Of a DNA stretch of 64,000 nt, positions 7,562-54,025 are shown one piece after another. The notes beneath the pieces are model-generated. The model was given only the letters and a program-made list of their open reading frames with translations. It ran no database searches and was not told the DNA's origin. Source of the DNA: Stentor roeselii (Eukaryota > Ciliophora > Heterotrichea > Heterotrichida > Stentoridae); NCBI GenBank assembly GCA_006503475.1, contig RSEH01000218.1, positions 19,222 to 83,221 on the forward strand. The letters run 5' to 3'. Position 1 is the stretch's first letter. The number at the start of each line of letters is the position of its first letter. The translations under genes and the position numbers were made by a program.

Positions 7562-8380
7562 TTAAACAGGTTCATGATGATCAAGGTTTACTATTAACTA
7601 CCCAATCATTACACTTCCATTGTCACCTAAGGTCAACTTGTCACTTTCCGAGGCAAAGAGTATTTTTTGAATGTCCATCAAATATTCACTTTGCTTGAGT
7701 TCATGATAATCACAGTAATTTTCAATAATTCGAAGTTTACTAAAGTAGAAATCTTTTTCTTTTTCAGATAAAAGAAGCATTTCTTTCAGTTCTCTTATCT
7801 CGCCTTCAAGTTTTTCCAATTTTTCAGTTTGAATGACTGGCTTGGCCTGAGTTGGACTTGTCGGAATTCTGAGGCCTGGAGAAGGGCCTCTGGGCGATAA
7901 GAGCTTCGGCGAGGTGCCTTTTTTATCTGAGCTTCTGTTGCGAGTATCGCGCTTGTCAGGAGTGTCCCAAGGGGTTTTCGCTCCTCGTCTTCTGTCAGTC
8001 GGGTTGTAGTCGCCTGCAGTTCCACAGTTTAAATCGAAAAAACGTTTAAACCATTGAAAAAACTCGAGATTGTCTTGATATTTCGCTTTTATTAGTTTTT
8101 CTACGTCGATGTGCTTCTGGATTCGGTGCTTGTCAAATGCCGCTTGGAGAATTTTGTAGTTTCCGACGAATTCGTGGTCGTATTGAGCAAGCCAGTTTAT
8201 TTTGTTCATTGGAATCGATGCCGGGTACATTATGTCCAATATTTGGCAGTATGCGGCTCCGGAAGCCATTTGCTCGACTTTTGTGATGTGGATTTGGAGT
8301 AAGTCGTTCACCCATGAGATTAACTCGTTTTTAGATACGAAGAAAGCACCTTCCATCATGCCGATGTTTTCATTTGCCAT
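7562..8380 (-). CDS. EB1-family microtubule plus-end binding protein
   Basis: EB1 (MAPRE) proteins bind growing microtubule ends and recruit partners. Residues about 14-115 form the calponin-homology domain, with the family's pattern of helices and a conserved segment around residues 85-118. A Pro/Arg/Ser-rich linker follows, then the EB homology coiled coil near residues 185-245 with a FYFSKLR-type motif. Unspliced, the frame stops at 7598 (260 aa). A 15-nt GT...TAG segment at 7598-7612 contains that stop; removing it gives 267 aa with a different tail ending HHEPV. Neither version has the C-terminal EEY/F that binds CAP-Gly domains in animals. Domain call is firm; the tail is uncertain. Confidence 0.93.
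7598..7612 (-). other. candidate 15-nt intron in EB1 gene
   Basis: Minus-strand GTAATGATTGGGTAG. It contains the in-frame stop and closely matches the intron at 36391-36405. Unlike the other seven 15-nt introns seen here it has G, not A, at position 10, so it is the least certain. Confidence 0.5.
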
Positions 8381-16863: not shown

Positions 16864-18039
16864 CTAAAGATTTACTTTGTCAAGTGCTTGGGACAGGTCC
16901 TGGATAATGTCCTCAATATGCTCGACTCCAATTGAAAGTCGTATCAAAGAATCAGAAATTCCCAGCTCAGCCCTAACCTCTGCAGGGACTGAGGCATGGG
17001 TCATGATTCCAGGGTGTTCCATAAGACATTCAACAGCTCCTAAACTTTCAGCACATATGAAAATTTCCGTAGAAGATAAAAAAGTCCTTGCCGCTTCAAG
17101 TCCCCCTTTAATGTAAAAAGTGATCATTCCTGAAAACAACTTCATTTGTTTTTTCGCGATTTCATGGTGAGGATGAGATAAAAGCCCTGGGTAAATCACT
17201 TTTTCCACCTTTGGATGACTTTCTAAGAACTGTGCAACTTGAAGTGCATTATTAGAATGAGCCTGCATGCGAAGATGAAGAGTTTTCATACCTTTCAATG
17301 CATTGTAACAGTCAAAAGGTCCAGGAACGCCGCCCATGGCGTTTTGCAAGAACTTAAGTTGTTCGAATAACTGAGGGTCATTCATGGCAATGACTCCCAT
17401 GACGACGTCAGTGTGGCCTCCGATGTACTTGGTGACTGAATGGACAACCACATCAGCCCCAAGCGCAAGAGGCGACTGACAATAAGGACTGGCGAATGTA
17501 TTGTCAACAAAAACCAATGCTCCTTTTTCATGAGCAATTTTACTGATTTCTGCGATGTCAGAAATTTTTAAAGTCGGGTTTGTCGGAGTTTCAATCCAGA
17601 TCATTTTCGTGTTTTCTTTGAAATTACGACGAACCTCTTCTAAGTCTGAAGTGTTTACAAAGGAAAAGTCGACTCCTTGTCTAGGCCTCGTCACACGGTT
17701 CATCAGTCGACGGGTCCCGCCGTAGACGTCGTCTGATGTCAAGATGTGGTCTCCTGAACTGTACATCGCGAAGATTGTGTTTGTTGCTGCAAGACCACTT
17801 GCAAATGCCAGGCCGAATTTCCCACCTTCAGATAATGCCAGGCACCTTTCAAATGCTTCTCGGGTCGGGTTGCCTGAACGGCTGTAATCGTATTTGGAGT
17901 AAAGAACACCTGGACTTCTTTGGGCGAAGGTTGTTGATAAAGATATCGGAGTCACCACTGCTCCTGTTGTAGGGTCTGGGTCTTGACCTGAATGGATAAA
18001 TCGGGTCTCTTGGTGGTACTTTGAATACTTATCAACCAT
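16864..18039 (-). CDS. CTH: cystathionine gamma-lyase (Cys/Met PLP enzyme)
   Basis: A 391-residue fold-type I PLP enzyme. It has YSRSGNPTR near residue 52, FASGLAA, DDVYGGT, ETPTNPT and the PLP-binding lysine in SVTKYIGGH (about K204), then MTHASVP and RLSIGVE at the C-terminus. These mark the cystathionine gamma-lyase/gamma-synthase group. The FYIKG and FLxNxMGxVPxPxDCY segments favour the eukaryotic gamma-lyase that makes cysteine from cystathionine. A cystathionine gamma-synthase or methionine gamma-lyase role cannot be excluded by eye. S-adenosylhomocysteine hydrolase, from the same sulfur pathway, lies 8 kb away. Confidence 0.93.
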   Translation of the reverse strand: MVDKYSKYHQETRFIHSGQDPDPTTGAVVTPISLSTTFAQRSPGVLYSKYDYSRSGNPTREAFERCLALSEGGKFGLAFASGLAATNTIFAMYSSGDHILTSDDVYGGTRRLMNRVTRPRQGVDFSFVNTSDLEEVRRNFKENTKMIWIETPTNPTLKISDIAEISKIAHEKGALVFVDNTFASPYCQSPLALGADVVVHSVTKYIGGHTDVVMGVIAMNDPQLFEQLKFLQNAMGGVPGPFDCYNALKGMKTLHLRMQAHSNNALQVAQFLESHPKVEKVIYPGLLSHPHHEIAKKQMKLFSGMITFYIKGGLEAARTFLSSTEIFICAESLGAVECLMEHPGIMTHASVPAEVRAELGISDSLIRLSIGVEHIEDIIQDLSQALDKVNL

Positions 18040-18188
18040 TGTTTATTGAGAATGGTGTGGACCTTTTAGAATGATTTTTTTGGGGCTGGGGTTTTTCTTG
18101 GTTTTTTTTTTTTGAAGAGATTTTTTTGGTTTTATTGGTTTAGGCTTGATTTTTACGGAAGATTTTTTGAAAGATTTTTTTATTTGGG

Positions 18189-18710
18189 TTAGTTTTTTGA
18201 TGTTTTGGGTTGATGGGATTGGAGTTGTAAAAGATTTTGGAATTTTAAAGAGATTTCTATCAAGGATTCTGTCCATTTTGATAGAGCGTGGCAGTATCGA
18301 GAGAAAGGTTGCAGGGATTCTGTTAGGCCTGGGTGGGAATCATATATTGACTTGATTTGGTGGATTTTTGGGATTGGGAGAAAATCGTTGGGAATGTGGA
18401 GGTTTTTTATTTTTGTTAGAAATTCTTGAGGGTTTCGAAGTCTTTTTCTTATTGATGCTGGAGTCGCTTGATCTTCATCAGATATTGCTATAAAAAAAGC
18501 TGAAAATAAGGGAATCAATAATTCTGAAGGTGGTAATGAAATCTTGACTTCTGAGGTTTCTTTTAAGGTTAGGTTTTGAAGTAGTTGTGATGATTGTTGA
18601 AATAATTCAAATATTTCGTTTATCAGTTTCTCTTCTTGATTTTCTGGAGGTGATTCGGATACTGAAAATGTTTCCATATAATAATCAGGCTTTTTAACTT
18701 TATCAATCAT
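18189..18710 (-). CDS. stand-alone dynein-stalk microtubule-binding-domain-like protein (divergent copy)
   Basis: A 173-residue protein and the most divergent of four tandem relatives. After a short helical N-terminus (about residues 25-50) it has the conserved block starting near residue 52 (SEV, then LPP at 59-61), an FL at 97-98, an IYDSHP segment near 122 identical to the 20103 copy, and W146 followed by ESL. This order matches the dynein heavy-chain stalk tip. It lacks the first Trp (TPASIRKRL in place of TWxxIRxxL). The coding part ends at 18189; the K/P-rich frame overlapping its end belongs to the leader of the next gene. Function is inferred from fold similarity only. Confidence 0.75.
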   Translation of the reverse strand: MIDKVKKPDYYMETFSVSESPPENQEEKLINEIFELFQQSSQLLQNLTLKETSEVKISLPPSELLIPLFSAFFIAISDEDQATPASIRKRLRNPQEFLTKIKNLHIPNDFLPIPKIHQIKSIYDSHPGLTESLQPFSRYCHALSKWTESLIEISLKFQNLLQLQSHQPKTSKN

Positions 18711-18992
18711 TGGATACTTATTGAAGAAACTGATAAATATACGATATATATTTTTTTCAAAGAATACAAATCACAAATATAAAGCACACCAAGTCTCAAC
18801 ATAATCTAAATATCAGTATTGCTTAAGTAATTTCAATTTCTCAGTTGAAAAAAATATCAATTTACTTGAATTCCTATTACTCCTCTTTCCAGCTTCAGTG
18901 AATCCTAATTATTTATTATATAAACTTAGAATATTGTTAAACAGAAAATGCATTATTATTTTTACTTATCTTAACTCTAAATCATTATGCAA

Positions 18993-19475
18993 TTATGATT
19001 GACTTCTCAATCGATTCCTCACATCTGATAACATCTGTTGTTTCAATGAAATCCTGAGTACTGACTCGAGCCAAACAGATAAAAAATAAACACATTTCGA
19101 AATTTGCCTGACATTTTCATTCAAATTGGGATTTGAATCATACAAATGTCTTATTCGAGTGACCTGAGCTGCTGTAAGTGGATGAGCCATCAAATCTAGA
19201 TTAAAAAGAGTTGAGAGAAATTGATTTTGTTTCAGCTTTGGTTTAATCTTTTCCCAAGTATTGATATTTCCTTGAAAATCTAATACTTGAAAGACTCCTA
19301 CTAATACGAGAACTAATGTTTGTGGAGGTTTAGCATATACTCTTATTTCATTTATATCTCTTGCATTTATACTACCTAGTGCTTGAATTCCATTTGCCCT
19401 CAGGGTTTGAATCTCATTAAGTAAATTTTGTTCTTCACTTCTGAGAGTATCTGATGTATTTTCATCACTTTCCAT
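18993..19475 (-). CDS. stand-alone dynein-stalk microtubule-binding-domain-like protein
   Basis: A 160-residue protein. Residues 13-36 form a short coiled coil like the end of dynein CC1. Residues about 37-140 match the dynein microtubule-binding domain in order: RDINEIR then AKPP (48-51), W74, FLSTL (86-90), LYDSNP (110-115), SKxxxxLSxW (to W134), then a short CC2-like helix (ISLKQQ...). In real dyneins this domain sits on a ~15-nm stalk of a >4000-residue motor; here there is no AAA ring, stalk or tail. The gene is complete, with no intron. Microtubule binding is a prediction. Confidence 0.82.
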   Translation of the reverse strand: MESDENTSDTLRSEEQNLLNEIQTLRANGIQALGSINARDINEIRVYAKPPQTLVLVLVGVFQVLDFQGNINTWEKIKPKLKQNQFLSTLFNLDLMAHPLTAAQVTRIRHLYDSNPNLNENVRQISKCVYFLSVWLESVLRISLKQQMLSDVRNRLRSQS

Positions 19476-20102
19476 ATTTATTTTGACTGAAATAGTAAAT
19501 CGAAAATTTTATAAAATTTACTTTCATTAGACTACAAAAATTGTGAGTAGTACAGTTTATTGCTGATTTCAAGGAAATTAAGTTTATAGTTAATCCATAA
19601 GTAATCGATAATTTAAACTTTTTCGATTTTTACACATTTGCTCTGTGCTTACTAAATTCTAAGTAATATTTGATTTCAAATTTCAAATTTTTTTATCCAG
19701 TATTATATAATATCATGTAATTCTAAGTACTAATTCTCATTAAACAGTTCTTGTATGTAAATCATTTTATTATTAGATATCTAATCATTAAAGAAAATGA
19801 TAGATTTGCAAGATTTTATTAAATTTATTTATTCAAATTCAGAAAACTATCTCTAAAATTGGATATATTTATCTAACGTGATACTGAAATACAAAGAATA
19901 TCACTCAAAGATTCAGAATATAATATAATGTGTTAATATATTTAGTTTTAGACTGTTAAGAGGTAGAATTGAATTAATTATGAGTGGTTGAATTTTACCT
20001 ATAGTTTTCATTCACTAATCAATAATCTGCTTTAAATTTACAGTAGCAAATCCGATATTAATAACCTAAAAAAACACTAAAGCTATAAAAGTAAAACAAA
20101 AT
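19476..20102. other. AT-rich intergenic between tandem stalk-head genes
   Basis: About 627 bp, very AT-rich, without a credible gene on either strand. Spacing is much larger than elsewhere in this compact window. Confidence 0.6.
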
Positions 20103-20561
20103 CTAATTAGTCATCTCGTTTCTTATCTCTGACAACCTCTGTTGTTTCAATGAAATCTCAACTGATGACTCGAGCCAAATAGATAAACGATGCAAGAATC
20201 TAGAAACGTTCTTTGCACTTTCAGTTAAGCCAGGGTGAGAATCGTATATTCTCTTGATATCTTCCACTTGAGAAACTCCTAATGGCTGGAGTTCGAAGTC
20301 TCTATTCAAGAGAGATGATAAGAATTGATTTGGATCACTCAGATTTCTTCTGATTAAATCCCAAGTATTGATACTTCTGTCATTGTTGACTGCGACAAAC
20401 ACAGCTGGTAGAATAAGAAGTACATCATCAGGAGGCCTAGAAAAAAATATAACTTCACAAATTTCATTCTTTTTAATACTGAAAAGTGACTTATTTGCTT
20501 TATTTCTAAGGTTTTGAATATCATTTTCGAGAGTCTGCTCCTCGAGTCTTGAAATTTCCAT
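20103..20561 (-). CDS. stand-alone dynein-stalk microtubule-binding-domain-like protein
   Basis: A 152-residue member with the clearest dynein likeness. A helix at residues 6-26 leads into SLFSIKKNEICEV (25-37), then RPP (42-44), W67 in TWDLIRRNL, FLSSL (80-84), IYDSHP (105-110), a NVSR segment near 118-121, W129 and ISLKQQ. Dynein 1 has the same series: SIKK...EV, NPP, DWKQIR, NF, YMSNP, NRAS, KW, and then CC2. No intron, membrane segment or signal peptide. It is separated by 627 and 958 bp of AT-rich DNA from its neighbours. Function is inferred. Confidence 0.85.
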   Translation of the reverse strand: MEISRLEEQTLENDIQNLRNKANKSLFSIKKNEICEVIFFSRPPDDVLLILPAVFVAVNNDRSINTWDLIRRNLSDPNQFLSSLLNRDFELQPLGVSQVEDIKRIYDSHPGLTESAKNVSRFLHRLSIWLESSVEISLKQQRLSEIRNEMTN

Positions 20562-21519
20562 TATATGATAAAGACAAGATGGAAAATGCTATGTGAACCT
20601 TCTGCAGTTTTAATATGTTAATAGTGGCTTGGAAACTAATTCGCTTACGTTATTATTTATATTTTAGCAATAAATTAACTTAATTAGTTTATAAGAGCAA
20701 ATTATGAAAGGTGAATTAGCTGAAATTATATTTCTTGAATAATTATTCTTCGAGTTTATTTGTATAAAATTTATACTTATAAAGCAACATTCATCTATCA
20801 TTAATTCACTGCACCTTTGATATCTAAAAGTTTCGAAATTGAGTTTTTTATTGAATAATTATATAAAGACTTACGCTTTATATTAAGTTTAACATATATA
20901 TTATCGAGTCCATATTACATATAACAAGCCTAGCGCTAAAAACAACATTAAAAAAATAATTATCGAGAATTGATTGAATTTTTTTCGGTATTTCTAAATC
21001 TTTAAACAAATACATCACATCATATTGGCTTGCCATATATATCATATATACTTAGATTTTTTAAGAAATGCCTTAGCTTAATTGATTCATTATTTAGCTT
21101 TAATCCCAAAGATATTCAGCAAAATAATCAGAGTATTTCGAAATCATCTCTGTTTTTACTCTAAGATATTTTGTGTAAAAAAATATCAATAAGTGCAAAT
21201 ATATGTTCTTAAGCTCATGAAATAAAAAGTAATTGAAATGATGAAAACTTAGATTTCAAGCTAAACCTAATAAGTATATATTCTTTTGTGTCCTACAAAA
21301 TTTGATAATAAAATCTGCTTTTTTTAGAATTATAAGCCTTCCATATTCTTCTCCTTATTCGACTTTCTAAGATTTTACCTTGAAAAATACTATTCTACTG
21401 CAAGATATTATCCATCAAGAATTATCTACTTAATAAAATGTATTATATTGTGTGATGTACTATTTCTGTTGATAATTTCTTTATAATTTATATCTATCTA
21501 TATACTCAATAATTAATCT
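20562..21519. other. AT-rich intergenic between tandem stalk-head genes
   Basis: About 958 bp of AT-rich DNA. I find no open frame of useful length. Decayed copies of the neighbouring gene family could be here but I could not recognise one. Confidence 0.55.
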
Positions 21520-21975
21520 TTAATATCTTAATCTTCTCCTAATTTCTAATAACTCCTGTTGTTTAAGGGATATCCTAGTTGATGACTCGAGCCAAGAAGC
21601 TAAATGATGAACAACAGTTGAAAATCTTCTTGAATTTTCAGTCAAATTAGGTTGAGATTCAAATAATTTATTGAGCTCCTCGATCTGGGAAGCCAAAAGA
21701 GGCTCAGCTGCGAAATCTCTATTAAAAAGTGACTCTATAAATTGATCTGTGTATCTTAGTTTCCCCCTTATTTGATCCCAAGAGATTTCCCTCACGTTAT
21801 TCACTGCGAATAGCACATTTGATAAAATAATTTGAATTATTTCAACTGGTTGAGCAAGTGCTCTTAGTTCATGCAAGTCATTTTTCCGAATACTGTTGAG
21901 TGATTGGCCTGCTTTTATTTTTAGGTTTTGAATTTCGTTTTCTATTATCTGCACCTCGTTCAGCGAATTTTCCAT
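21520..21975 (-). CDS. stand-alone dynein-stalk microtubule-binding-domain-like protein
   Basis: A 151-residue member. Residues 7-28 form the entering helix, followed by SIRKNDLHELR (28-38). The PP motif is reduced to QPV (42-44), then W66 in SWDQIRGKL, QFIESL (78-83), LFESQPNL (104-111), W128 and ISLKQQ. Compared with the 20103 copy it shares NRDF, SSxxISLKQQ and the AVNN loop. It keeps the two tryptophans but loses the second proline, which in dyneins shapes the start of the microtubule-binding head. Otherwise complete and without intron. Confidence 0.8.
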   Translation of the reverse strand: MENSLNEVQIIENEIQNLKIKAGQSLNSIRKNDLHELRALAQPVEIIQIILSNVLFAVNNVREISWDQIRGKLRYTDQFIESLFNRDFAAEPLLASQIEELNKLFESQPNLTENSRRFSTVVHHLASWLESSTRISLKQQELLEIRRRLRY

Positions 21976-22309
21976 GATTTTATTATATACTATTCACATC
22001 TATTTATATTATCTTAGTAAATCAAAGGTTTTTTTCTGAAATTTTTCAAGTTTATCGTTTTTAATATAAATCTCTTGCTAGATACTTAAAAATAACAAAA
22101 ACATGAAATAATTGAAAGATTTTACTTAATTTGATGAGGATAGTTCAAGTTTGTCAATTTTAGTTATTCGAATCTGGTGGATATTGAGTTGAAAATTAAG
22201 AGTGGTTATGGAATAATTTTACTAAAATCACTAAATCGTTTACAATTTGATCCCTGATTCAATTCTTTGCTTCATTTTAATAGCAATCAAAAGGCCTAAG
22301 GAATTAATT

Positions 22310-22456
22310 TCAAGTCTTCAAGAGTTTAAATAATGCTGAGATTTCTCTTATATCTCTCGATGTCATATTCAGAACTTGAATTACAACATGAGATACCGAT
22401 TGTAAAACTTTAACATTTTCTTCTTCCTTTCTCAGATTTCTTTCAAATCTGTGTGA
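22310..22456 (-). pseudogene. relic of a dynein-stalk-head-like gene (N-terminal part)
   Basis: A 48-codon open stretch with no usable ATG, preceded by in-frame stops and ended by TGA. Its translation has the family's entering helix and then IQVLNMTSRDIREIS, which lines up with IQALGSINARDINEIR of the 18993 protein. It stops before the PP motif, and nothing resembling the rest of the domain follows in 21976-22309. I read it as a decayed fifth copy at the upstream end of the tandem cluster. Confidence 0.5.
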
Positions 22457-22645: not shown

Positions 22646-23716
22646 ATGAAAGTGTTTATTTTGTTTTTAGTGTGCATCTTCGCACACACAACTAAACAGC
22701 ATCATAAACACGATAACGGGCATCATCACATGCACGACCACCTCCACGACGATCATTCCCACGACCACAGCGACGAGGGTTTTTCTCCAGAGCCTTCTCT
22801 GCACGATCATCATCACCACGATCATTTCTCGTCTTTAACCTCAGCGAACTCTCCTCTAAGGCCTTACATCCAGTGGTTAACATCACTAATCTCATCGAGC
22901 GGTCCTCTGTCATCAGCAGTGGCTTCATCAATCCTGACAACAGGAGCTTCGTTCATTATTTTTATCTTCATCTGGTTCATCCAAAAGTTTCAAGTCCTCA
23001 CAGACGACCTGCTAAGTTCCTTGACGAGTTTCGCAAGCGGAGCTCTTTTAGGAGACGTTTTTTTGCATTTGATGCATGAAATTCCACATTCGACCTTTTC
23101 AAACCTGCTGATTCTTGGAGGAATTTTGATTTTCTTTGTACTTGATCGAGTGCTTTCACATAACCATTCTAGTAAAAAGATAGAAAATGAGAAAGAAAAG
23201 AAAGAACTAGGAAAAAAAGGGAAAAATACTCAAAATTTGAGAAAAGAGGAAAAAAATGAAGTTGAGATTAAATCGCATCATGAAGAAAGTGCTTTGTTGT
23301 TGTTAATGGCTGACTTTCTTCATAATGCGACTGATGGAATGGCGATTGGCGCAAGTTACGCGATTAATCCGACACTGGGAATTAGTACAACTATCGCGAT
23401 TTTTTTGCATGAAATCGCGCATGAAGTAGGAGATTTCATCGCTTTTTTGAAGTTTGGGGTCAGTCTTACCCGAGCCTTGTGCATGAATTTGCTGACGGGT
23501 CTTGGGTCGTTGATTGGGACTCTTATTTCTCTTTATTATGGCTCGACTGATACCTTGACTCGTATTGTCTTGCCAATCATCGCAGGAAACTTTTTGTATG
23601 TTTCAATGATTTCCATGCTGGCTCCCATGAAGAAACAGAAAAAATCTCTTATTATCTGGGAAGTTTTTTTCTTTTGTAGTGGGGTAGGGCTTATGGTAAT
23701 GATTGAGGAGCTTTAG
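22646..23716 (+). CDS. ZIP (SLC39) family zinc transporter
   Basis: A 356-residue membrane protein. A signal-like hydrophobic start is followed by a His/Asp-rich luminal loop (about residues 17-60, metal-binding in type). TM segments follow from about residue 80. TM4-TM5 carry the zinc-site motifs DFLHNATDGMAIGAS (near 225) and HEIAHEVGDF (near 255), the signature of LIV-1/KE4-type ZIPs. A charged His/Lys loop (about 170-215) separates TM3 from TM4, as in the family. It resembles SLC39A7/A13, which move zinc from ER or Golgi to cytosol. The substrate is inferred. Confidence 0.95.
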   Translation: MKVFILFLVCIFAHTTKQHHKHDNGHHHMHDHLHDDHSHDHSDEGFSPEPSLHDHHHHDHFSSLTSANSPLRPYIQWLTSLISSSGPLSSAVASSILTTGASFIIFIFIWFIQKFQVLTDDLLSSLTSFASGALLGDVFLHLMHEIPHSTFSNLLILGGILIFFVLDRVLSHNHSSKKIENEKEKKELGKKGKNTQNLRKEEKNEVEIKSHHEESALLLLMADFLHNATDGMAIGASYAINPTLGISTTIAIFLHEIAHEVGDFIAFLKFGVSLTRALCMNLLTGLGSLIGTLISLYYGSTDTLTRIVLPIIAGNFLYVSMISMLAPMKKQKKSLIIWEVFFFCSGVGLMVMIEEL

Positions 23717-25478: not shown

Positions 25479-25943
25479 CTAAAGTACTCGCTTGGACACC
25501 CTGTTGACAGGCCAAACTCCTTGTTCAATAGTATTTTGATCAAGAGTAGAATAATAAATGAACCAAGTGAAAGCAAATTCATAAGCCAAGAAGAAAGTCC
25601 AGAATCTAACTTTATGCTGCATTGGGTAGCTTCGATAAGGAATTCCTTGAGGACAGTGCTTTACGTAGGTGTTGTTGCACAGCCAGAAACTAAACGGCGA
25701 GATCAGCGCAGCGATTGCGAACATTTTCCTCTTTTTTTGAGCTTCGAATTGTACACTTTTGTGATACATGTCCACTTGCAACCGACGTGTCGGGTCCGGG
25801 TGAAAAGAAGAGTCTTTATACGACTGGTCTCTGAACTCCTTTTCAAGTTTATCTAAATAAGCCAGCTCCTCAGCACGACTTGGCAACGGAGGGACTTCCG
25901 AGTGATCCTCAGGTGCGATGACTCTTGTCCATTTGCTATCCAT
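25479..25943 (-). CDS. small two-TM membrane protein, 154 aa
   Basis: Residues 1-70 are hydrophilic and Pro/Glu/Asp-rich. Two hydrophobic helices follow at about residues 74-97 and 112-133, with a short Cys/Pro-containing loop between them. It ends in a basic tail. The form would suit a small subunit of a mitochondrial or ER complex, but I do not recognise a family and this is a guess from shape. It begins 45 bp from the stop of the SAHH gene on the same strand. Confidence 0.7.
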   Translation of the reverse strand: MDSKWTRVIAPEDHSEVPPLPSRAEELAYLDKLEKEFRDQSYKDSSFHPDPTRRLQVDMYHKSVQFEAQKKRKMFAIAALISPFSFWLCNNTYVKHCPQGIPYRSYPMQHKVRFWTFFLAYEFAFTWFIYYSTLDQNTIEQGVWPVNRVSKRVL

Positions 25944-42163: not shown

Positions 42164-45100
42164 ATGAGCGGATTTCAAGAATCTCGAATGTTAAGCCTCG
42201 AAGACAGTCTTCACAGGTCTCTTCTAACCAAAAAAACAATGACCCTATCAGAGCCCCAAGCAAGTCTCTACGCCGAAGAAGTTCTAGACCTTCAGATAAA
42301 GACTTTAATCGGAGACCTTGAAGGTCACTCAGGTCCAGTCACTTCTCTTTCAATGACCCCTGACGGAAGCAGCCTAATCAGTGGCTCATCAGATAAAACA
42401 ATAATAATTTGGAGCACTCTTCACAAGAAGCCAGTTTCAGTCCTTTCAAGTCACCAAGACGAAATAAGCGACCTTTGCCTTACCTCAGACTGTTCTCTTC
42501 TCCTTAGCGGTTCAAAAGACAAGACCGGGAAACTTTGGAATTTCCAGTCAAAAGCTCTGCTTTTGACACTTTCAGCTCATGAAGCCGCAGTCACAAGTGT
42601 TGCTTTTTCTGAGAAATCTCAAAAAATTCTGACATGTGCTGAAGACGGTTGGGTGAATGTCTGGAATTACTCTGGAAGTCTTTTAGGACAACTGTCTTGC
42701 AGGCAAGAACCTTGTAAGACTTGTGTTTGTTTTAAAGAATTGGCTGTTGTTTCTTGTCAGACGGGGAATTTTTTTATATGGAATCTTGTCAATTTTCACG
42801 TTGTTGAAGAAAATCGCATGCAAGGCGAGGTGAGTTCACTTGCTGCCAGTTATGACCAAAAAATGTTGGCTTTTGCCTCAAGTGCTGGGAAAGTCAAGAT
42901 ATTTAAAGGCCAGACTTTGAAGATTTTCTCAGAATTCACTGACAGAAAGGGGTTGATCTGTGTAAGGTTTTCAGGAGACTCAAGATTTTTACTTACTTGC
43001 TCAGATGATTATTATATCTATGTTTGGGATATTTTGAAAAGACAAAGAGAGGTCAGTTTAAGGTTCTTCCCCAAAAAACCTCAAGTTTTTTGTGTTGACT
43101 TTGGGTTTAAACTTGTCGTTGCAGGGTTCAATGACAAGTCACTTCGTATCTGGGAAACTTGTGAAAGAAAAGATGTGAAAAGCTTTCAGATGCATGATGA
43201 TGAAGTCAAAAGTATTGCTTTGTCTGGGGATGAAAGGTTTTTAGCCACGTGCTCTTTTGATCGGACTGTGAAAATCACTAGTTTTCATGATTTTCAAGAG
43301 GAAGTCGTGATTAGACAGGAGGACTTTTCGAATTCGGAATGCCTTGCACCGTTTAAAAGATTTTTTTTGAGTGGGCATCGGGATGGGTCGGTTCTTGTTT
43401 GGGATCTGATGACGCAGAGAAAAATTAAAGAGTTTAAATCGCACTCTGGGGCTGTTGATGTTTTGAAGGTTTCGGAAGAACTTCAATTCGCGGCTTCTTG
43501 GGCAAGAGATAAAAGTATTGTTGTGTTTGACTTAGAAGAGATGAATGAGAGTTTTAGGATGAATACCTATGATCATGAAGTTAATGCACTTGTTTTTGTA
43601 TACCAGATTAGAAGGCTCTTCAGTGCAGGAAAAGATGGTTTAATCAAAGTTTGGGATTTGGATTCCAAGATTGAAATTTCTCAAATCATTACTCATCAAG
43701 GCCCAGTTTCAGATTTATTTGCTGAGCAGAAAGCAAATTTTATTGCAAGTTCTGGAAGTGATGGGACTATTAAATTCTGGAATACATCAACTCTAGATAA
43801 AGAGTTTTCAATTAATGTTGATTTGCCAATTACTTGCATTACCCATGGCATAATAAGAAATGATTTGTTTGTTGCCCTTGATGATGGCTTGATTGTCTGT
43901 TATAGCTTGGAAACTAAAAATAAAAAATTTACTCTTACAGGCCACAAAGGTTTGATAAACTCAATGGCACTGACCAAAACCGAAGACAAACTGCTAAGCT
44001 GCGGTACTGAAAACTCAATATTCATCTGGAACCTGACTTCAAACCAATTCGAATGTTTTTTACCCGGCCATTCACAGTCCATCAACGACCTAATCCTGAT
44101 AAAAAGCTTTATAATAACCTGTTCCGCGGATTCTTCAATAATTCTCTGGAACTTGATAGAAAAGTCCCAAAAATCTCGTCTTCAATTCAAGTTAGGAAAA
44201 TCCCTCTGCATATCTTTTGCCTCAAACAACAAGTTCTTGACCTTTGGAACAGACCTTCCCGAGTTAAACATTTACGACTTAACAACGAAAAACCTTCTTC
44301 AAGTCGCAGGACATTCAGGAGCGATCCATTCAGTGGGGGTATCTCCAGACAACGAAAAAATAGTCTCAGGTTCAGCAGACACGACGATAAAAGTCTGGTC
44401 AGTGAATGGTCCACTAAAAGACTTCGAACTTTCCGGCCATTCCTCAACAGTGACTTCAGTTTCCTTTACAAATAAGCCAAGCACTTTAGTTTCATCGTCT
44501 CTGGACAAGCAGATAAAAGTTTGGAACACAAAAACAAGACGCCAGGTCTTTTCCTTTAGTAACTCTTTTCCTATAACCTGCATGACAGTCGGGAATTTGA
44601 AGCACTGTCTCTACGCGGGTTCAGAAGAAAAGACAATAAAAGTGCTGGGTCTAAAAGAAAGAAAGGTTTTGTACTGCACTCCTTTATCAGACAGTCAAAT
44701 ATCATCGATAGCGATAAACAGTCAAGAAACTTTTTTGGCCTATGCAGGTCTGAGCATTATTTACCTGTTCGACACTGGCTCAAGAGAAGTCCTGTTCAAA
44801 CTCACAGGCCATGCTCGGAACTTTATCAATAGTCTGGTCTTCACGGTGAACAACAGGATCGTCAGTAGTTCCGCGGACTACTCAGTCAAGGTCTGGAATT
44901 GTCTTCAGGTCTCTGAGCTTCGGAAAGTGAGACTTGAGGATGACTTGACTATCACCATGACTCTCACCAATGACAAGGAAAAGTTGATTTGCGGACTTGA
45001 TACTGGAGAAGTGAAAATCTGGAATATTAAGGACAAGTCGCTTTTTTGGGCTTGTCAGTCTCATCTAGAGGCTGTTTTAACTGTTAAAGTACTCACGGGT

Positions 45101-48100
45101 GATGACTTGTTTCTCACGGGGTCGAAAGATAACACTGTTAAACTGTGGAGTGTTAAGGATAAAAGACTTTTAAATACTTTTCTAGGACATTCAGATTGGG
45201 TCAAGGACCTGGCCTTGCAAGGCTCTAGGTTTTTTTCTGCCTCTTTTGATGGAAAAATTATTTCTTGGAGTGTTTTGGATTTTGATCAAGAAGGCGAAAT
45301 GACTGGACATTCAGCCCCTGTTGAATGTCTTCATTTTTTTGAAAAGTTTTTGGTCAGTGGCTCGCAGGATAAAAGTATTGCTTTTTGGAAAGATGGTGAA
45401 AAAAAGTTTGAACTACTTGGCCATTGTGAAGCAGTTGTTGCATTGAACCATGTTAATAAGGTTCTTATCAGTGGTGGAAATGACTGCTCAATCAAGTTTT
45501 GGGATCCGTTTCAGAAGGTTTTGATTTCTAGTTTAGACAATCTTTCAGGTAAAATTTCAAGCATTCTGGTTCTAAATGATAACTATTTTGCATGCGGTTT
45601 TTCCGACTCTTCCTTAAAACTTCTAACATCAACAGACCAATCCTCAAATCTAACTTCACACAATGAAAAAATCACCTCCCTGGTAAAATTATCAGAAACC
45701 CTAATAATCAGCAGTTCAGAAGACCGAACAATTCGCACATGGAACACAAAATCGCAAACCGAGTCATCATTATTCAAAGGAAAATCCGAGAGCATCTCAT
45801 GTCTAACAGTATCTCGTGACTATTTATTCGCAGGGACATCGACAGGAGGAGTGTTTTGCCTGAGCCTAGAAGAAAACCGCGAAGAAGCCTATTTATGGGC
45901 GCATTCTTCAATAGTGAGAGCACTGGCTTATCTCGACGACGAAGACCTGCTGATGAGCTGTTCAAATGACTTTACTTTGAAATTCTGGGACATGAGGACG
46001 AAAAAACTGTTATCAGTGAAAAAAGACCACAGCCACCGAGTGCGTCATTTAGAAATCACTTCAAATAAGCAGTTTCTTGTGAGTTGTTCCAGTGACAACT
46101 CAATAATCATCTGGAACCTTCAAGAAAAAAGCTTGAAATCAAAACTTCTCGGACACAAAGGTTTCGTGAATCATTTAAAAATCAGTCAAGACGGCTCTTT
46201 CCTTGTTTCTTGCTCTGCTGACCTGTCGATAAAGTACTGGAAACTTGAAACAGGTCAAGAAATCGGCTCGATCAACAACGCGCACTCTGACAGCATCTTG
46301 GCTATTGTCCTGCTTGAAGACAAGTGGCAAGTAGCGACCAGTTCTCGAGACAAGTCGATTAAACTCTGGGATATCGACCGAAAAAGACTAGTTTGCACTT
46401 TTTTAGGGCATAAAGGAGCTGTTGAAAAACTCATTTCAAGCCAAAATCGAAGATTTCTCATCAGCGGGGCAGAAGATCGCACTGTGAAGCTTTGGAATAT
46501 TCAAGAAAAGAGACTAGAGTTTACTTTGCCTCCTCATTCTGGAAGTATCACTGGTCTCTGCCTGAGTTTCGATAAAAAGTCATTATTTGTAAGTTCGGAA
46601 GCTGGAGAACTGAAAGAATGGCGGATTAGTTCTATTGAAACTAGTGAAGAAAGGGTTGTTGACGTACTTGAGTCTGACTTTCAAGTCTCCTGCGATGCTT
46701 CGAAGACGAGTCACATGTCGAAAAAAGAAGCATCTTTAAATGAAAACCTTTCATTTTTCGACAATTCTCCAAGTCACTGCCTGGACGTCTTCATTAACGA
46801 CCCTTCCCGATTTTACAACATCTGCTTTGCAGTGAAAACTGGAAGCGTTGTTAAAGGATTGACTGGTCTTTCTCACGTTAAAATCTCCAACTGTGCCTTC
46901 GGCCTGGCTCATATCCTGGCCTTCACCGGGAAAGAAGAAATGCTTTCCCAGCTGCTTTCCAATGATTCTCTTATCTTCGCAGATGGTTTCGGAAGATCTC
47001 CATTTTACTACGCTTTTAAAAGCAACCACAACCGCTGTGCAGAGATTTTACTTGACTTTTTAATCAATTTGTACGAAAAAGACCTGGCGGATGATCTTTT
47101 CACTGCAACTTATGCACTTAGAAATGATTTTTCAATGATTCTCAGCAGATCAGTTCTGAGGATCGGCAAGTTTCTGAAGGTTTCAATGGTTGCTAGCAGG
47201 TCAGCTTTTGTTTCAGTTGAAACTCGAGTCCCAACAGCGATTTTTTCATCTTTACCAGTTCCGGCAGGAGAGGATCTCGGCACATTTTTAGAAACAACTG
47301 AAAAATTCCAGATATTTTTCCTTTCTTTTCCTTTTGAACTGCCGGTGAAGCCTGGGTCGCAAGCGAGTCTTGAGCTTTTGCAGGCGATAAGCCAGTGCCA
47401 GGATCAGGAGATTTTATCAGCGGTGCCTATTCAAGAGTTTGTGAATTTTCAACTGGGAGCAGTGGTGGGATGGGTGCGGCTTTACTCTTTTCTTTACTTC
47501 TGCAATTTGGTCCTGCTCATTGTTCTCTGCTCTGAACCGGGTTTAGTTGTTTTGACGTGTTTTCTCGTCGTTAATTCTTTCTTGGTGGTCTTTGAACTGT
47601 TGCAGGTGGCGACTTCTCGAAGAGAGTATTTTAAAGAGTTTTGGAATTTGGTTGATTTGATGAGAATCGCTTTGATTGCAGTTTGGGTTTTTTTTATTGA
47701 CTCAAAAGTAGACTATTTGGAAGAAATCGTTGTTTTTTTGAATTTTGTTCGAGGTTTGACTGCTTTCAGGATATTTGACGGGACACGGTATTACATCAGG
47801 TTGATTCTCAAGTCGTTGAATGATGTGAAGTACTTTTTGATCTTGTTTTTTTACTCGAACCTCATGATGGGGTCGCTTTATTCAGTGCGAAGCGAGAACC
47901 AAGTGAACTTCAAAACGCTTTGGTTCGACATGTACAGCTTTAACTTCGGGTACTACGACGCTCAAAGGGTTTCCACAGCAGCAGACTTCGCTATTTTCAT
48001 GTTTGCCTCTGTTCTTAATATCATCGTCATGCTCAATCTGCTCATTTCAATACTCGGGGACTCACATGATCAGTTCCAACTGGAAAGAACTGCGATTAAC

Positions 48101-48628
48101 TTCCAGGAAAAGACTGAAATGTGCCTTGAAGTTCAGAAACTCATGTTTTGGAATCGGAAGCTTAAGGACCTCGCTTTTATGCATCTCGCTCGCAAGGTCG
48201 GACAGGATCAAAATGATGGCTCTTGGGAAGGAAGGGTTCTTTATATTGAGAAACAGATTCAATCTGTTAATTTAAATGTCAAGACTTCTAATCAGGCGCT
48301 TTTGAATGAAATTGCTTTGAAAATTGACTCTAGTGTTGCGGAACTAAAAAATCATTTTGAAAGTGATAAGGTTCTTGGCAGAAATGAACCTGCTTTGGAT
48401 GAGTCTGAAAGGTATCATGATGTTCATGGCGTTTTTGATTATCGGATTAAAAGAGTTGAAAATATTCATGAGGCTCTTTTCGCAAAGATTAGTGAGATTA
48501 AAAATTCTGATCATGAGGATAGGATTTGCGGCCTTGAAATGAAATTTGATGAAAGGTATGATTCTATTGTTGGTAGAATTGAAAAACTGGAAAATGGTAT
48601 TGCAAAGATTCTTGAAAAATTTAAGTAG
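42164..48628 (+). CDS. giant WD40-repeat / TRP-like ion channel fusion
   Basis: A 2154-residue single-exon protein. Residues about 50-1490 contain 35 consecutive WD40 units by my count, each ~41 residues with GH...SGS.D..IK.W-type ends; 35 would make exactly five seven-bladed propellers. An ankyrin-like helical pair follows near 1570-1640 (GLAHILAFTGKEEMLSQLL, then a second unit). Six hydrophobic segments at about 1770-1975 form an ion-transport domain of TRP type, with YLEEIVVFLNFVRGLTAFRIF before the pore region and LNIIVMLNLLISILGDS as the last helix, where TRP channels have their S6. A coiled coil closes the protein (about 2030-2154). It is predicted to be a cation channel with a very large cytosolic sensor; selectivity and ligand are unknown. 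Confidence 0.93.
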   Translation: MSGFQESRMLSLEDSLHRSLLTKKTMTLSEPQASLYAEEVLDLQIKTLIGDLEGHSGPVTSLSMTPDGSSLISGSSDKTIIIWSTLHKKPVSVLSSHQDEISDLCLTSDCSLLLSGSKDKTGKLWNFQSKALLLTLSAHEAAVTSVAFSEKSQKILTCAEDGWVNVWNYSGSLLGQLSCRQEPCKTCVCFKELAVVSCQTGNFFIWNLVNFHVVEENRMQGEVSSLAASYDQKMLAFASSAGKVKIFKGQTLKIFSEFTDRKGLICVRFSGDSRFLLTCSDDYYIYVWDILKRQREVSLRFFPKKPQVFCVDFGFKLVVAGFNDKSLRIWETCERKDVKSFQMHDDEVKSIALSGDERFLATCSFDRTVKITSFHDFQEEVVIRQEDFSNSECLAPFKRFFLSGHRDGSVLVWDLMTQRKIKEFKSHSGAVDVLKVSEELQFAASWARDKSIVVFDLEEMNESFRMNTYDHEVNALVFVYQIRRLFSAGKDGLIKVWDLDSKIEISQIITHQGPVSDLFAEQKANFIASSGSDGTIKFWNTSTLDKEFSINVDLPITCITHGIIRNDLFVALDDGLIVCYSLETKNKKFTLTGHKGLINSMALTKTEDKLLSCGTENSIFIWNLTSNQFECFLPGHSQSINDLILIKSFIITCSADSSIILWNLIEKSQKSRLQFKLGKSLCISFASNNKFLTFGTDLPELNIYDLTTKNLLQVAGHSGAIHSVGVSPDNEKIVSGSADTTIKVWSVNGPLKDFELSGHSSTVTSVSFTNKPSTLVSSSLDKQIKVWNTKTRRQVFSFSNSFPITCMTVGNLKHCLYAGSEEKTIKVLGLKERKVLYCTPLSDSQISSIAINSQETFLAYAGLSIIYLFDTGSREVLFKLTGHARNFINSLVFTVNNRIVSSSADYSVKVWNCLQVSELRKVRLEDDLTITMTLTNDKEKLICGLDTGEVKIWNIKDKSLFWACQSHLEAVLTVKVLTGDDLFLTGSKDNTVKLWSVKDKRLLNTFLGHSDWVKDLALQGSRFFSASFDGKIISWSVLDFDQEGEMTGHSAPVECLHFFEKFLVSGSQDKSIAFWKDGEKKFELLGHCEAVVALNHVNKVLISGGNDCSIKFWDPFQKVLISSLDNLSGKISSILVLNDNYFACGFSDSSLKLLTSTDQSSNLTSHNEKITSLVKLSETLIISSSEDRTIRTWNTKSQTESSLFKGKSESISCLTVSRDYLFAGTSTGGVFCLSLEENREEAYLWAHSSIVRALAYLDDEDLLMSCSNDFTLKFWDMRTKKLLSVKKDHSHRVRHLEITSNKQFLVSCSSDNSIIIWNLQEKSLKSKLLGHKGFVNHLKISQDGSFLVSCSADLSIKYWKLETGQEIGSINNAHSDSILAIVLLEDKWQVATSSRDKSIKLWDIDRKRLVCTFLGHKGAVEKLISSQNRRFLISGAEDRTVKLWNIQEKRLEFTLPPHSGSITGLCLSFDKKSLFVSSEAGELKEWRISSIETSEERVVDVLESDFQVSCDASKTSHMSKKEASLNENLSFFDNSPSHCLDVFINDPSRFYNICFAVKTGSVVKGLTGLSHVKISNCAFGLAHILAFTGKEEMLSQLLSNDSLIFADGFGRSPFYYAFKSNHNRCAEILLDFLINLYEKDLADDLFTATYALRNDFSMILSRSVLRIGKFLKVSMVASRSAFVSVETRVPTAIFSSLPVPAGEDLGTFLETTEKFQIFFLSFPFELPVKPGSQASLELLQAISQCQDQEILSAVPIQEFVNFQLGAVVGWVRLYSFLYFCNLVLLIVLCSEPGLVVLTCFLVVNSFLVVFELLQVATSRREYFKEFWNLVDLMRIALIAVWVFFIDSKVDYLEEIVVFLNFVRGLTAFRIFDGTRYYIRLILKSLNDVKYFLILFFYSNLMMGSLYSVRSENQVNFKTLWFDMYSFNFGYYDAQRVSTAADFAIFMFASVLNIIVMLNLLISILGDSHDQFQLERTAINFQEKTEMCLEVQKLMFWNRKLKDLAFMHLARKVGQDQNDGSWEGRVLYIEKQIQSVNLNVKTSNQALLNEIALKIDSSVAELKNHFESDKVLGRNEPALDESERYHDVHGVFDYRIKRVENIHEALFAKISEIKNSDHEDRICGLEMKFDERYDSIVGRIEKLENGIAKILEKFK

Positions 48629-49834: not shown

Positions 49835-52800
49835 TTAACAGCCTGAACTTATTTGACCATTAAAAGTTTCCCTCTGATTTTGTCTTATTATTCTGTCATT
49901 AGCGCTCGAAGCAAACTGCAAGGCTCGGGATTTTTCAAGCTTTAAATAAAGTTTCCTAACTTCCACAGCAAATGTATAAAGCCCAATGATAATCTGAGTC
50001 CCTGTGGACGTAACAATGATATAAATGCAAGCATTTTCTATTCTCTTGATCTGATCCTGATCCTTAATCAAGAGAAAAAAACTCGAGCAAATGAAAACAG
50101 AATTAACACAAAATTCTCCAATCAACGCAGAAGCCATAGCTGCAGGGTTTTTGAAAGGCCGAGCATAGATCAAGAAGACCAAAATAATCAATGAAAATCC
50201 GATATTCGTCCAAACAGCCACCCAAGGAAACTCTACCAAGAAGATCTGCACAAAAACATATTCAAGTCTTCGTAATAAAATGATCGGGTAGTAAAACGTC
50301 CTGACCCATTTTTTTTCTTCTTTGAATTCTTCGAACAAGCTTCCAAACTTTAACCTAAAATTTCTTTCAAAGGTTTTCTGCTCGGAATACTTCAAAAAGT
50401 AAAAAAACATGAAAGGTGAAGCAATGAATAAAATCTTTTTAGATGTTACTGTTAGAATCAAAGCGAAGCACATGTTGAAAAAACCTGCAACGAAGGATTT
50501 TATTTCCTAAATAAAAAGTACGGACTTCAGTTGAACAATAGAAAAAATCCCGAGTTCTAAATAGCTTTGAATCCAAAACCTTATAAAAAAGCCAAACTGG
50601 TACTTCTGCTTAAGGATCGTCAGTTTTGGAGACCTGAAACAATACTTTTCAATGAGGATTAAAATAAATAAGCATATTGAGGTGAAAATCAAAATGACTG
50701 AGATTTGGCCGATGTTTATAAGTAATACTGAAGTATTGATACCGAATTCAAATGCTTTGTTATATGGTAAAGATGTACTGTTGTGACCAATGAAAAGTGA
50801 GAAAATATTTGGAATTGAATTATAAGACATTAAAGAATTGGACATTTCCTTGAGCTTCTCGGGATAATCTACTGAATTCAAGGGCATGAAAATTATCAGT
50901 TGGATGGTGTTTAATAAAGACCACAATGATGATGGGTCTGAAGCGAGTGAAGTGGCAACACTTATCAGAACTGCTCCTTTTGCCCCCTGAGTAATACTAA
51001 TTCCCATTAAAACCACTTCTGCAGGCAAGTAATTCAAGTACCCTTCAAAAGTTTGATTAAACAGCAATGATCCTGAAACACTGTAAATTTTTGATTTAAT
51101 ATGAATAACGATTCTCTTTTGTTGATCTTTCTCAACATTAACCTCTGGGACGATTAAAACACTGTTATATCTCTTTTGCAATAAACTAAATTTCAATCTT
51201 TTCCCTTGATATTCCAAAAGCAGGTTAACTGCTGATAAATTCTTTTCAAGGTCTTCTGAAAACCTTATTCGCAATTTGTTATTTTCAGACACAGTCAGCT
51301 TGCCATAAAAGAAGCTTTCAACACAAGAGTTATTCACTTTTTTGAATCCTTTACCACAGATGCACCTTTCATGAACTTTTTCACTATTTTTAATACACTG
51401 GGTGCACCTTAAATCTTCATCACACTGAGTGCAAAGATCAGGGCATTGAAGGCAATTTGATGTATTCAAAGAGTTCTTCCAGCATAAAACAACACAATGC
51501 TTCAATGAATTCAATTCTCCTTTACCCTCTTTGCATTTTAAACATCTATCAAAAGATGAGCAGGTCTCGCAGTCATCGTGGCAGGGCTGGCAAGAATCGG
51601 ATTCCGTGAGAGTTGAATGATTAAAATACCCTGAAATGCATTGACAGCCATTTTTTTCGCTAGGAAGAGAATTTTCAGCTTTGCAGCTTAGACAGAACTG
51701 CGAATTATTACAAGAAAGGCAGTCAGGGTTGCAAGATTTACATGAATTTTCTTGATCAAGCATAGAATTATTCCAATATCCTGCTTTACATTCGCATCCT
51801 TCTATATTGTGAGGCTTTGCAGCAGAACTTTTACATGTCAAGCAACTTTTTTCTGAAATGCAGGACTGGCAATCTGCATGACAAGGTTTGCAAGAATCTG
51901 CATCGGACATCTCTCCATCAAGCCAAAAGCCGCTTTCGCAGATGCATCTATTACCTTCAACAAAAGTATTCCAAGAAACGCATTCAAGACATTTTAATTG
52001 CTCACATTTGCGGCACCCTACTTCACAAGGTAAACAATTGGGACCTTCAATGAAAGAACTTGCCGAAATACACTCGAGGCATTTGAATTGATCACATCTT
52101 AAACATTCAGGTTCACAAGGAATGCATTGATAATCATTTTCAGTTTTGAAAAACCCATTTTCGCAAACGCACTGGATTGAATCAGGTAGAGAATTCGCGT
52201 CCAAACATTCCTGACATTCAGCAGCTGTGCATTTTGCGCAACCCAATTGGCAACTGATACAATTCTCGATATCCAAGTTTCCATAAAACCCATCATCACA
52301 TTTACATTTTCCCCCATCAACTTTTGAATTTGAATCATAGCATTCAGAGCAATGTGTCAAATCAGTACATTTCGAGCATCCTGTATCGCACATAATACAG
52401 AGATATGAAGAGTCTTGAAAATATCCATCGGGACAAGAACAGACTCCTCCGTTTTTTAAGCCTAGAGCATCCTTGCATTTAATACAAATTTGAGCTTCTG
52501 AGCAGTCAGCACAGGTTATATCACAAGACAAACATTGAACAGAAGCATCTCCATAAAATCCTTTATCACACAAGCAAGATCCTCCATTAGTATGAGAATT
52601 TTGAACCTTACATTCACTGCATGATGTCGAAGATGTACACGATTTGCAAGAGCTATGACACTGATCACATGTCAACCCATTCCCAAAGTATCCAACCTTA
52701 CAAGTACACATATTGTTTTTAACTTCAGCATTGATATTCTCACACTCAGTGCAAAAGTCAAGCGCAGTGCACTTCTTACAACTAGCACGGCAATCTTGAC

Positions 52801-54025
52801 AAGAAGTAGGGTTTCCAAAATATTTATCCTTACAAACACAGTACTTTCCATTGGCGATGGCATTTGAATCCGAGCATTTTGAGCATAGAGTTGACGAGCA
52901 AATATCACATCCTTCTTCACAAGCAACACAATTATTAGATTTAGAAAAATCCCCTGCACTGTAATACCCTTGATCGCAAGTACATTGACCCCCTGAATAT
53001 TTTGCGTTGTTTGAATAGCACCCTGAGCACACGCCTAGATGATCACAGATGCTGCAGATCCCATCACAACATTTGTCATTTCTGCTCACATAAGGTGATT
53101 GACACTGGCAGCTGATAACAGTACTTGGCTTTAGTAGCATATCACTTGAAATACTCTTAGAATAGCAGGTATTTGTCTCTTGATCGTAAGTGCAAAAAGA
53201 ACTCGATAAATCACAAGAAAGCAGAACCGTTTTGGTGCATCCACCTGATGAGCAGCTAGTTCCAAACGCATTCGAATCCTCATCGAAGCTTGTAGTTAAA
53301 CATCCTGTCTCAAGATCTGGATCATTGAAAGCTACTGAGCAAGATGAGCACGAGCCCTGTCCCTGAAGACAGTTGGAAGAGCCAGTTGTTGTGATAAGTG
53401 AACTAAAGTCAACCACTCCAGAATGAATCTGAAAATTCCAAATAATGCAGTCTAAAGCGTGATACCCACTTGTATAGCCGAGACCGATAGTATAGCTTGA
53501 AGCTGGTGTGAAGGACTTGCTCACTGTTATCGAATGCTTGAGATTCGAATAAGCTGTGAATGAAGAACTTGAGTAAACCAGTGACAATAAGTACCATTTA
53601 CTAGCATAAAAATCGTTTGGGTCTGCGTAGTTAACTGCTGAATTCAAGTAAAGCCGAATCCTGTCCTCTCCTCCACCTCTTGCGAAGATTATATTTGATG
53701 AAGAGTCTTTATAGTAAAAAATGCTTAAAGTTGTATCTTTGCTCATTATCCACACTGAGAATGTGAATGGGCTCGGGAATGAGCCAGATGCTTTTATGTC
53801 AACGGAACTTGTTGTGTGCTGCAAATAAATTCCTCTGTCTGTTGAAAGTACATTGGAAGATGTACTGGAATCGCCATTTATTCCGTAGTGCCCATTCAAA
53901 GAATAGTCGAAAAAGTAGTCCCCGTAGTCACGGTTGAATCGATACTCTAACCATTTTGTTGACGAGGCAATTACGACGCAAAAGACCAAAAAATTCATTA
54001 TAACCATAATTAATCGCTTTAACAA
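49835..54025 (-). CDS. cysteine-rich LamG-like multi-pass surface protein, 1391 aa
   Basis: Two frames are joined by a 15-nt intron (50507-50521). Order: signal peptide (1-21); one LamG-like beta domain (about 25-210) with an RGIYL motif; about a dozen CxxC-type furin/EGF-like repeats (215-895), each near 45 residues with a G-Y/F turn; a beta domain (900-1000); and about eight membrane helices to ~1345, with a FYYPIILLRRLEYV motif in the loop and a PF motif after a later helix. Ciliates have many such proteins, often of unknown function; a receptor or channel-like role is inferred. It is divergent from and homologous to the gene at 55580. Confidence 0.9.
50507..50521 (-). other. 15-nt intron
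   Basis: Minus-strand GTACTTTTTATTTAG, with A10 and TAG end, between codons. It joins the large extracellular exon to a 224-codon exon holding the later membrane helices. Confidence 0.9.

Follow-up and report, generated by a model that had tools for sequence, protein, structure and literature searches.

Dynein heavy chains contact the microtubule through a head that is known as an insertion within a motor exceeding 4,000 residues, and the register of a long stalk sets the affinity of this head. According to published work, cited here throughout by PMC number and from excerpts, the stalk register shifts helix H1 into or out of the tubulin cleft, and the interface formed by H2, H3, H4 and H6 is primed for binding in any nucleotide state (PMC6629372). 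For the C. elegans DHC-1 microtubule-binding domain (MTBD), a purified fragment co-precipitates with microtubules (PMC4230729). We describe here a cluster of four adjacent genes from the ciliate Stentor roeselii that encode homologs of this head in a motor-free gene architecture. The genes lie on contig RSEH01000218.1 (assembly GCA_006503475.1) within a stretch of 64,000 nucleotides, hereafter the window. Our preferred reading, to which we assign a probability of about 0.55, is that these proteins are dynein heads that were released from stalk control and reused as small microtubule-binding proteins.

All four open reading frames (ORFs) are on the minus strand, at 21520..21975 (g1, 151 aa), 20103..20561 (g2, 152 aa), 18993..19475 (g3, 160 aa) and 18189..18710 (g4, 173 aa). 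Each has its own ATG and stop codon, none requires an intron to be read, and the start methionines line up among the copies, whose limits are roughly equal. Relative to g2, amino acid identity is 47% for g1, 43% for g3 and 36% for g4 (g4 is 27% identical to g1 and 28% to g3), and 29 alignment columns are invariant. GC content is 0.33-0.35 within the genes versus 0.215-0.295 in the intergenic spaces. At least one stop codon occurs in every frame of the 300-base flanks of every gene. The layout of a dynein heavy chain, in which the head sits on a long coiled-coil stalk emerging from an AAA+ ring, is thus absent, given ORFs of 151-173 aa between closed flanks. The window has 26 other ORFs of at least 150 aa, and the Pfam matches listed for 13 of them include no dynein family (for the ORF at 42164-48628, among the best 25 of 51 matches). 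GT..AG stretches of 15-16 nt are found inside g1, g2 and g3, with the frames open across them, and none is found in g4. A Lys-rich frame of 77 aa (18043-18276, minus strand) overlaps the 3' end of g4 in a different frame and stops three bases short of the start codon of the following gene. We considered whether it continues g4; it has no Pfam match and g4 offers no 15-16 nt GT..AG stretch, and it is possibly a chance opening in A/C-rich DNA.

Homology to dynein heads was evident from the single sequences of g1-g3 as well as from profiles. In phmmer searches of PDB sequences (E <= 1), dynein heads made up 31 of the 33 matches of g1 (best E 2.5e-5, the mouse dynein-1 head), 25 of the 27 matches of g2 (best E 1.8e-5) and all 32 matches of g3 (best E 1.7e-8), making g3 the closest of the four to dyneins by sequence. 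When a profile of all four proteins was used, the best 60 of 62 matches were to dynein, either heavy chains or heads in isolation (top E 2.7e-10); this count includes a few chains under other names, such as RSPH9, CFAP57 or 'AAA+ ATPase', whose length is that of a dynein and whose match falls on the stalk head. As a control, the g3 sequence was reversed, and it had no PDB match. Searching a profile of six dynein heads against 1709 six-frame fragments of the window placed the four genes on top, with g3 at 56.2, g2 at 49.5, g1 at 46.1 and g4 at 16.3 bits, ahead of a fifth fragment at 5.6 bits and a best score of 5.3 bits on reversed fragments; since the six pieces came from the family's own PDB matches, this is a reverse test and not wholly independent. 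Aligning the family profile with the dynein profile in hhalign gave a probability of 98.6 and an E-value of 1.4e-15 over 112 columns. Significant profile similarity to dynein heads therefore extends to all four proteins, weakly in g4 (E 8.4e-4), which scores 242 bits against a family profile that includes it. Judged by these comparisons, g1-g4 share common descent with dynein heads. The original prediction, made by a model from the sequence alone, had described proteins of 151-173 aa with this homology, and the homology was borne out in all four, g4 being the weakest.

Structure prediction adds a fold for one member. AlphaFold2 was run for g2 with the four-row family alignment only, and the best model had a predicted local distance difference test score (pLDDT) of 90.7 and a predicted template modeling score (pTM) of 0.86. 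Its helices span residues 2-27, 31-38, 45-59, 67-74, 77-85, 96-108, 112-116 and 121-151, a series that reproduces the CC1, H1-H6, CC2 order of the dynein head. On the minus strand, the entering helix or CC1 stub (residues 2-27) corresponds to 20481..20558, the globular head of six helices (residues 31-116) to 20214..20471 and the leaving helix or CC2 stub (residues 121-151) to 20109..20201. Foldseek returned 270 matches to this model at E <= 10; among the best 50, ranks 1-32 were taken by structures of dynein or of axonemes that contain it (best E 1.1e-4), with a template modeling (TM) score of 0.80 to 3err and 5ayh, and non-dynein folds began at an E-value of 0.56 and a probability of 0.15. 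A viral fold library yielded nothing better than E 0.99. In the g2 model, then, a six-helix head is set between two antiparallel helices, and of the two proteins modeled, g2 and g4, it is for g2 that modeling supports a dynein-head fold. Comparison with known structures, which had been suggested as a check, came out well for g2 (pLDDT 90.7, with dynein occupying the top 32 places), whereas the g4 model was too poor (pLDDT 54) to judge by. A fold search with the g4 model also listed dynein heads at the top, yet their E-value was 0.044, with a TM score of 0.41, and no match reached E <= 0.001, so it was discounted as support.

A survey of 23 positions, based on an alignment of g1-g4 with seven dynein heads and using mouse numbering, indicates that most core residues are kept in the family. 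E3304, P3311, F3345, P3373, S3384 and W3393 are present in all four genes and W3333 in three (absent from g4). Position 3306 is basic in three of four genes and in all seven dyneins, and position 3337 in four of four genes and six of seven dyneins. The set of motifs originally listed survives in part, as the PP pair occurs in three of four (g1 has PV in its place), the first Trp in three of four (missing from g4) and the second Trp in all; the SIKK (in H1) and the PP assigned to the copy at 20103 were both found. The corresponding H1 motif of g1 is SIRK, and g1, like g2, has the first Trp. The g4 protein carries an N-terminal extension. A long H2-H3 insert is absent from the family, which argues against flap-bearing dynein classes as the donor.

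Two departures from dynein that all four genes share are at the boundaries between head and stalk. At P3285, the hinge proline of CC1, the genes have E, T, N and N (g4, g3, g2 and g1, respectively; Asn17 in g2), compared to P in all six dynein pieces with a residue at this site. At the hinge proline of CC2, the residues are Q, D, E and E in the same order, compared to P in DNAH6 and mouse, the two dyneins examined there. Neither proline is therefore kept in any of the four genes, although these residues have been called universally conserved (PMC6629372) and highly conserved hinges (PMC4987762). The E3289 site holds Q, N, K and K in g4, g3, g2 and g1 (Lys21 in g2), and the dynein mutant E3289K has been reported to make longer runs (PMC4987762).

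Ratios of Nei-Gojobori values (dN/dS) were 0.30 for g1/g2, 0.39 for g2/g3 and 0.41 for g1/g3, showing that g1-g3 evolve under constraint; synonymous sites were saturated in all pairs involving g4. In an unrooted tree, the four genes were split from seven dyneins with 100/100 support and g4 had a long branch (2.13); the seven dyneins were picked from the family's own matches and none is from the source organism. Of the four genes and one relic originally proposed, the four ORFs stand as paralogs and the relic was not established. This possible fifth copy, a 5' relic at 22313..22456 on the minus strand, matched the family profile at 4.4 bits (E 2.8). Its peptide score of 45 was the top of 848 fragments (the next were 44 and 43) and was reached in 25 of 2000 shuffles, and its DNA-level profile score of 0.7 bits was matched by 43 of 500 randomized sequences. 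Short-pattern searches for relatives gave 207 matches in prokaryote contigs and 105 in viral contigs, none of which was confirmed; both are uninformative on other ciliates.

From these features we infer microtubule binding at the intradimer site and a role that follows from it. Each protein would be seated on the tubulin intradimer cleft in the manner of a dynein tip, as a small microtubule-associated protein, with no ring available to press H1 down. With no ring and with both boundary prolines gone, ATP would not act as a switch for binding, and the lost prolines fit a release from stalk control. Since the tubulin-facing interface of dynein is primed for binding and a lone worm head binds, we propose an ATP-independent microtubule-associated protein that would act by occupancy. 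Such occupancy could decorate or stabilize cortical microtubule bundles and restrict the access of dynein or other proteins to the site; coating microtubules or competing with dynein, as first suggested, is thus a plausible function. The best candidate binders are most likely g1 and g2, in which the basic pair of H1 is retained, and the diverged g3 and g4 may have another binding mode. More tentatively, we suggest a new class of microtubule-associated protein that would have been freed by the double loss of hinge prolines, with a Lys at the E3289 site contributing in two copies, and that might coat the dynein site on cortical microtubules in a giant ciliate or control entry to it.

Several observations weigh against this reading. 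The Pfam family for the domain, PF12777 (MT), was missed by all four proteins in hmmscan, in which the cut-off is 24 bits, g1 scored 11.6 bits and g2-g4 were unlisted; three dynein head pieces of 110-137 aa scored 42.1, 81 and 30.7 bits as controls. The PF12777 check proposed with the original prediction thus went against it, and its claim of stand-alone dynein heads is supported by the profiles and by a confident fold in one of four proteins, and lacks this match. Profile homology together with sub-cut-off scores describes diverged relatives that lie outside the curated cut-off. On its own, g4 had a single PDB match, which was to a PCI-domain protein (E 0.0033) and not to dynein, and its model reached a pLDDT of 54.0, too poor for judging a six-helix head; it is weak on every test and divergent and, together with the relic, a weak point of the original interpretation. 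For g2, the remaining four models had pLDDT values of 84.4, 62.1, 58.9 and 43.3, a spread of 90.7-43.3 overall, and only four of the 270 fold matches had E <= 0.001. At the level of residues, E3289 is E in five of the seven dynein pieces and A and Q in the other two, and is therefore not universally acidic, and a simulation study did not observe the salt bridge proposed for it (PMC4987762). Mutation of E3378 to K raises the affinity of dynein (PMC4230729, PMC4987762), and the presence of E3378 in all four genes speaks against a simple 'brakes off' reading. The proposed tubulin contacts are retained in part. At K3298/K3299, the pair in H1, the genes have R-K (g1), K-K (g2), N-A (g3) and T-L (g4), so the lysines are lost in the latter two; R3382, a proposed tubulin contact, is found in g1 only (g1-g3 are basic one place earlier); position 3342 is basic in none of the genes and in two of seven dyneins; and net charge is slightly acidic in three of the four proteins. 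Weak binding has also been reported for the dynein-c head (PMC6629372).

Such losses could mean that tubulin binding has gone altogether and that the fold was kept as a compact helical scaffold for another partner, for example dynein itself, a light-chain-like protein or a ciliary structural protein. The loss of R3382 in three of four genes and of the H1 lysines in two, while most core positions persist, would agree with this, and, going by the title of PDB entry 6l4p, an outer-arm dynein head also binds a light chain. We nevertheless regard such reuse as unlikely, given that g1 and g2 retain the basic pair of H1 and that K3299 is missing from two of seven true dynein heads, so that losing a single contact is compatible with binding. 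More improbable still is that the genes are debris, functionless pieces of a duplicated dynein gene that are open by luck. A tandem cluster, a divergent and poorly modeled g4 with a branch of 2.13 and a possible relic are what debris might leave, but the four ORFs are intact with roughly equal limits, dN/dS is 0.30-0.41 among g1-g3 (pairs with g4 being saturated), the split from the seven dyneins is 100/100 (unrooted, and with none from the source organism) and both hinge prolines are lost in every copy. Neutral sequence so diverged would also be expected to carry stops.

Two further explanations concern the nature of the ORFs and of the likeness itself, and we consider both very improbable. 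The first is that the genes are exons of something larger, whether a dynein or another protein, joined across tiny introns; 15-nt introns are probably present in this genome, and GT..AG stretches of suitable length occur within three of the genes. Against this are the stops in all frames of the 300-base flanks, the AT-rich character of these flanks, the alignment of start methionines among copies and the lack of a dynein domain in the neighboring ORFs scanned. That a helical protein resembles the dynein head by chance is slightly less probable again: the unmet PF12777 cut-off (best 11.6 bits against 24) and the failure of g4 alone to match any dynein speak for it, and are outweighed by the profile-profile E-value of 1.4e-15, the ranking of the four genes first of 1709 by the dynein profile, the empty reversed controls and fold matches that are led by dynein, with none below E 0.99 among viral proteins. 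A motor-free dynein head reused on microtubules remains our preferred reading.

Intron-like gaps and open frames in the window are consistent with its source. Among AT-rich GT..AG gaps whose removal would fuse long frames, 15 nt is the commonest length, with five sites versus zero to two at any other length between 10 and 25, and the long window ORFs stay open under all three standard stops. Stentor introns have been described as mostly 15-16 nt (PMC9505925), and the 15-nt peak together with standard stops fits Stentor, which supports, short of proof, the Stentor-like cell of the original prediction. The five sites are at 25847, 31836, 37383, 50507 and 61076; at least one may be due to chance, and that at 25847 sits opposite another ORF. 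The cluster is flanked by a gene for a pyridoxal phosphate (PLP) enzyme of Cys/Met metabolism (16864-18039) and by a ZIP transporter gene (22646-23716). Approximately 10 kb from the cluster, a minus-strand gene (7598-8380) encodes an EB1-like plus-end protein with a CH domain and the EB1 C-terminal motif. What looks like an unusual fusion is encoded on the plus strand at 42164-48628, a 2154-aa protein with many WD40 repeats whose C-terminal part appears by eye to be an ion-channel-like membrane region. Two very large Cys-rich proteins with C-terminal membrane segments (50507-54025, minus strand; 55580-61090, plus strand) appear mutually related by eye and are each probably extended via a 15-nt intron at the end.

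Among the titles and abstract openings listed in literature searches aimed at this question, none described a dynein head that is naturally motor-free; most subscription journals lay outside the coverage, which makes this weak evidence of absence, and the excerpts of PMC12338079 and PMC9371601 hold nothing on such proteins. The family thus seems to present a known domain in an apparently undescribed architecture. A natural head-only protein, if true, would show that the module can live alone, and would offer a ready test for separating the residues of motor control (hinge prolines, E3289) from those of tubulin binding. Dynein traffic in Stentor-like cells would also gain a candidate regulator; in such cells, knocking down dynein intermediate chains disturbs cortical rows and mRNA placement, according to a preprint in which effects on single transcripts were significant for one of two constructs (PMC9882060).

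Among known systems, the closest is the MTBD of dynein heavy chains (PF12777; mouse DYNC1H1, human DNAH2 and DNAH6, trypanosome IDAf-alpha), with which the family has in common its profile, its helix order (in the one member modeled), its core residues and the lack of a long H2-H3 insert. It differs in its size of 151-173 aa, with stubs for a stalk and no AAA+ ring, in the loss of the hinge prolines and in its sub-cut-off scores for PF12777. Engineered constructs, namely the SRS-MTBD fusions and the C. elegans DHC-1 MTBD fragment, are likewise motor-free heads and can bind microtubules (PMC6629372, PMC4230729); these are laboratory fragments or fusions of fixed register, whereas the Stentor proteins are encoded by natural genes. 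EB1 resembles them in proposed mode only, as a small non-motor protein that occupies a site on tubulin, and it does so with a calponin-homology domain, a fold unrelated to that of the family.

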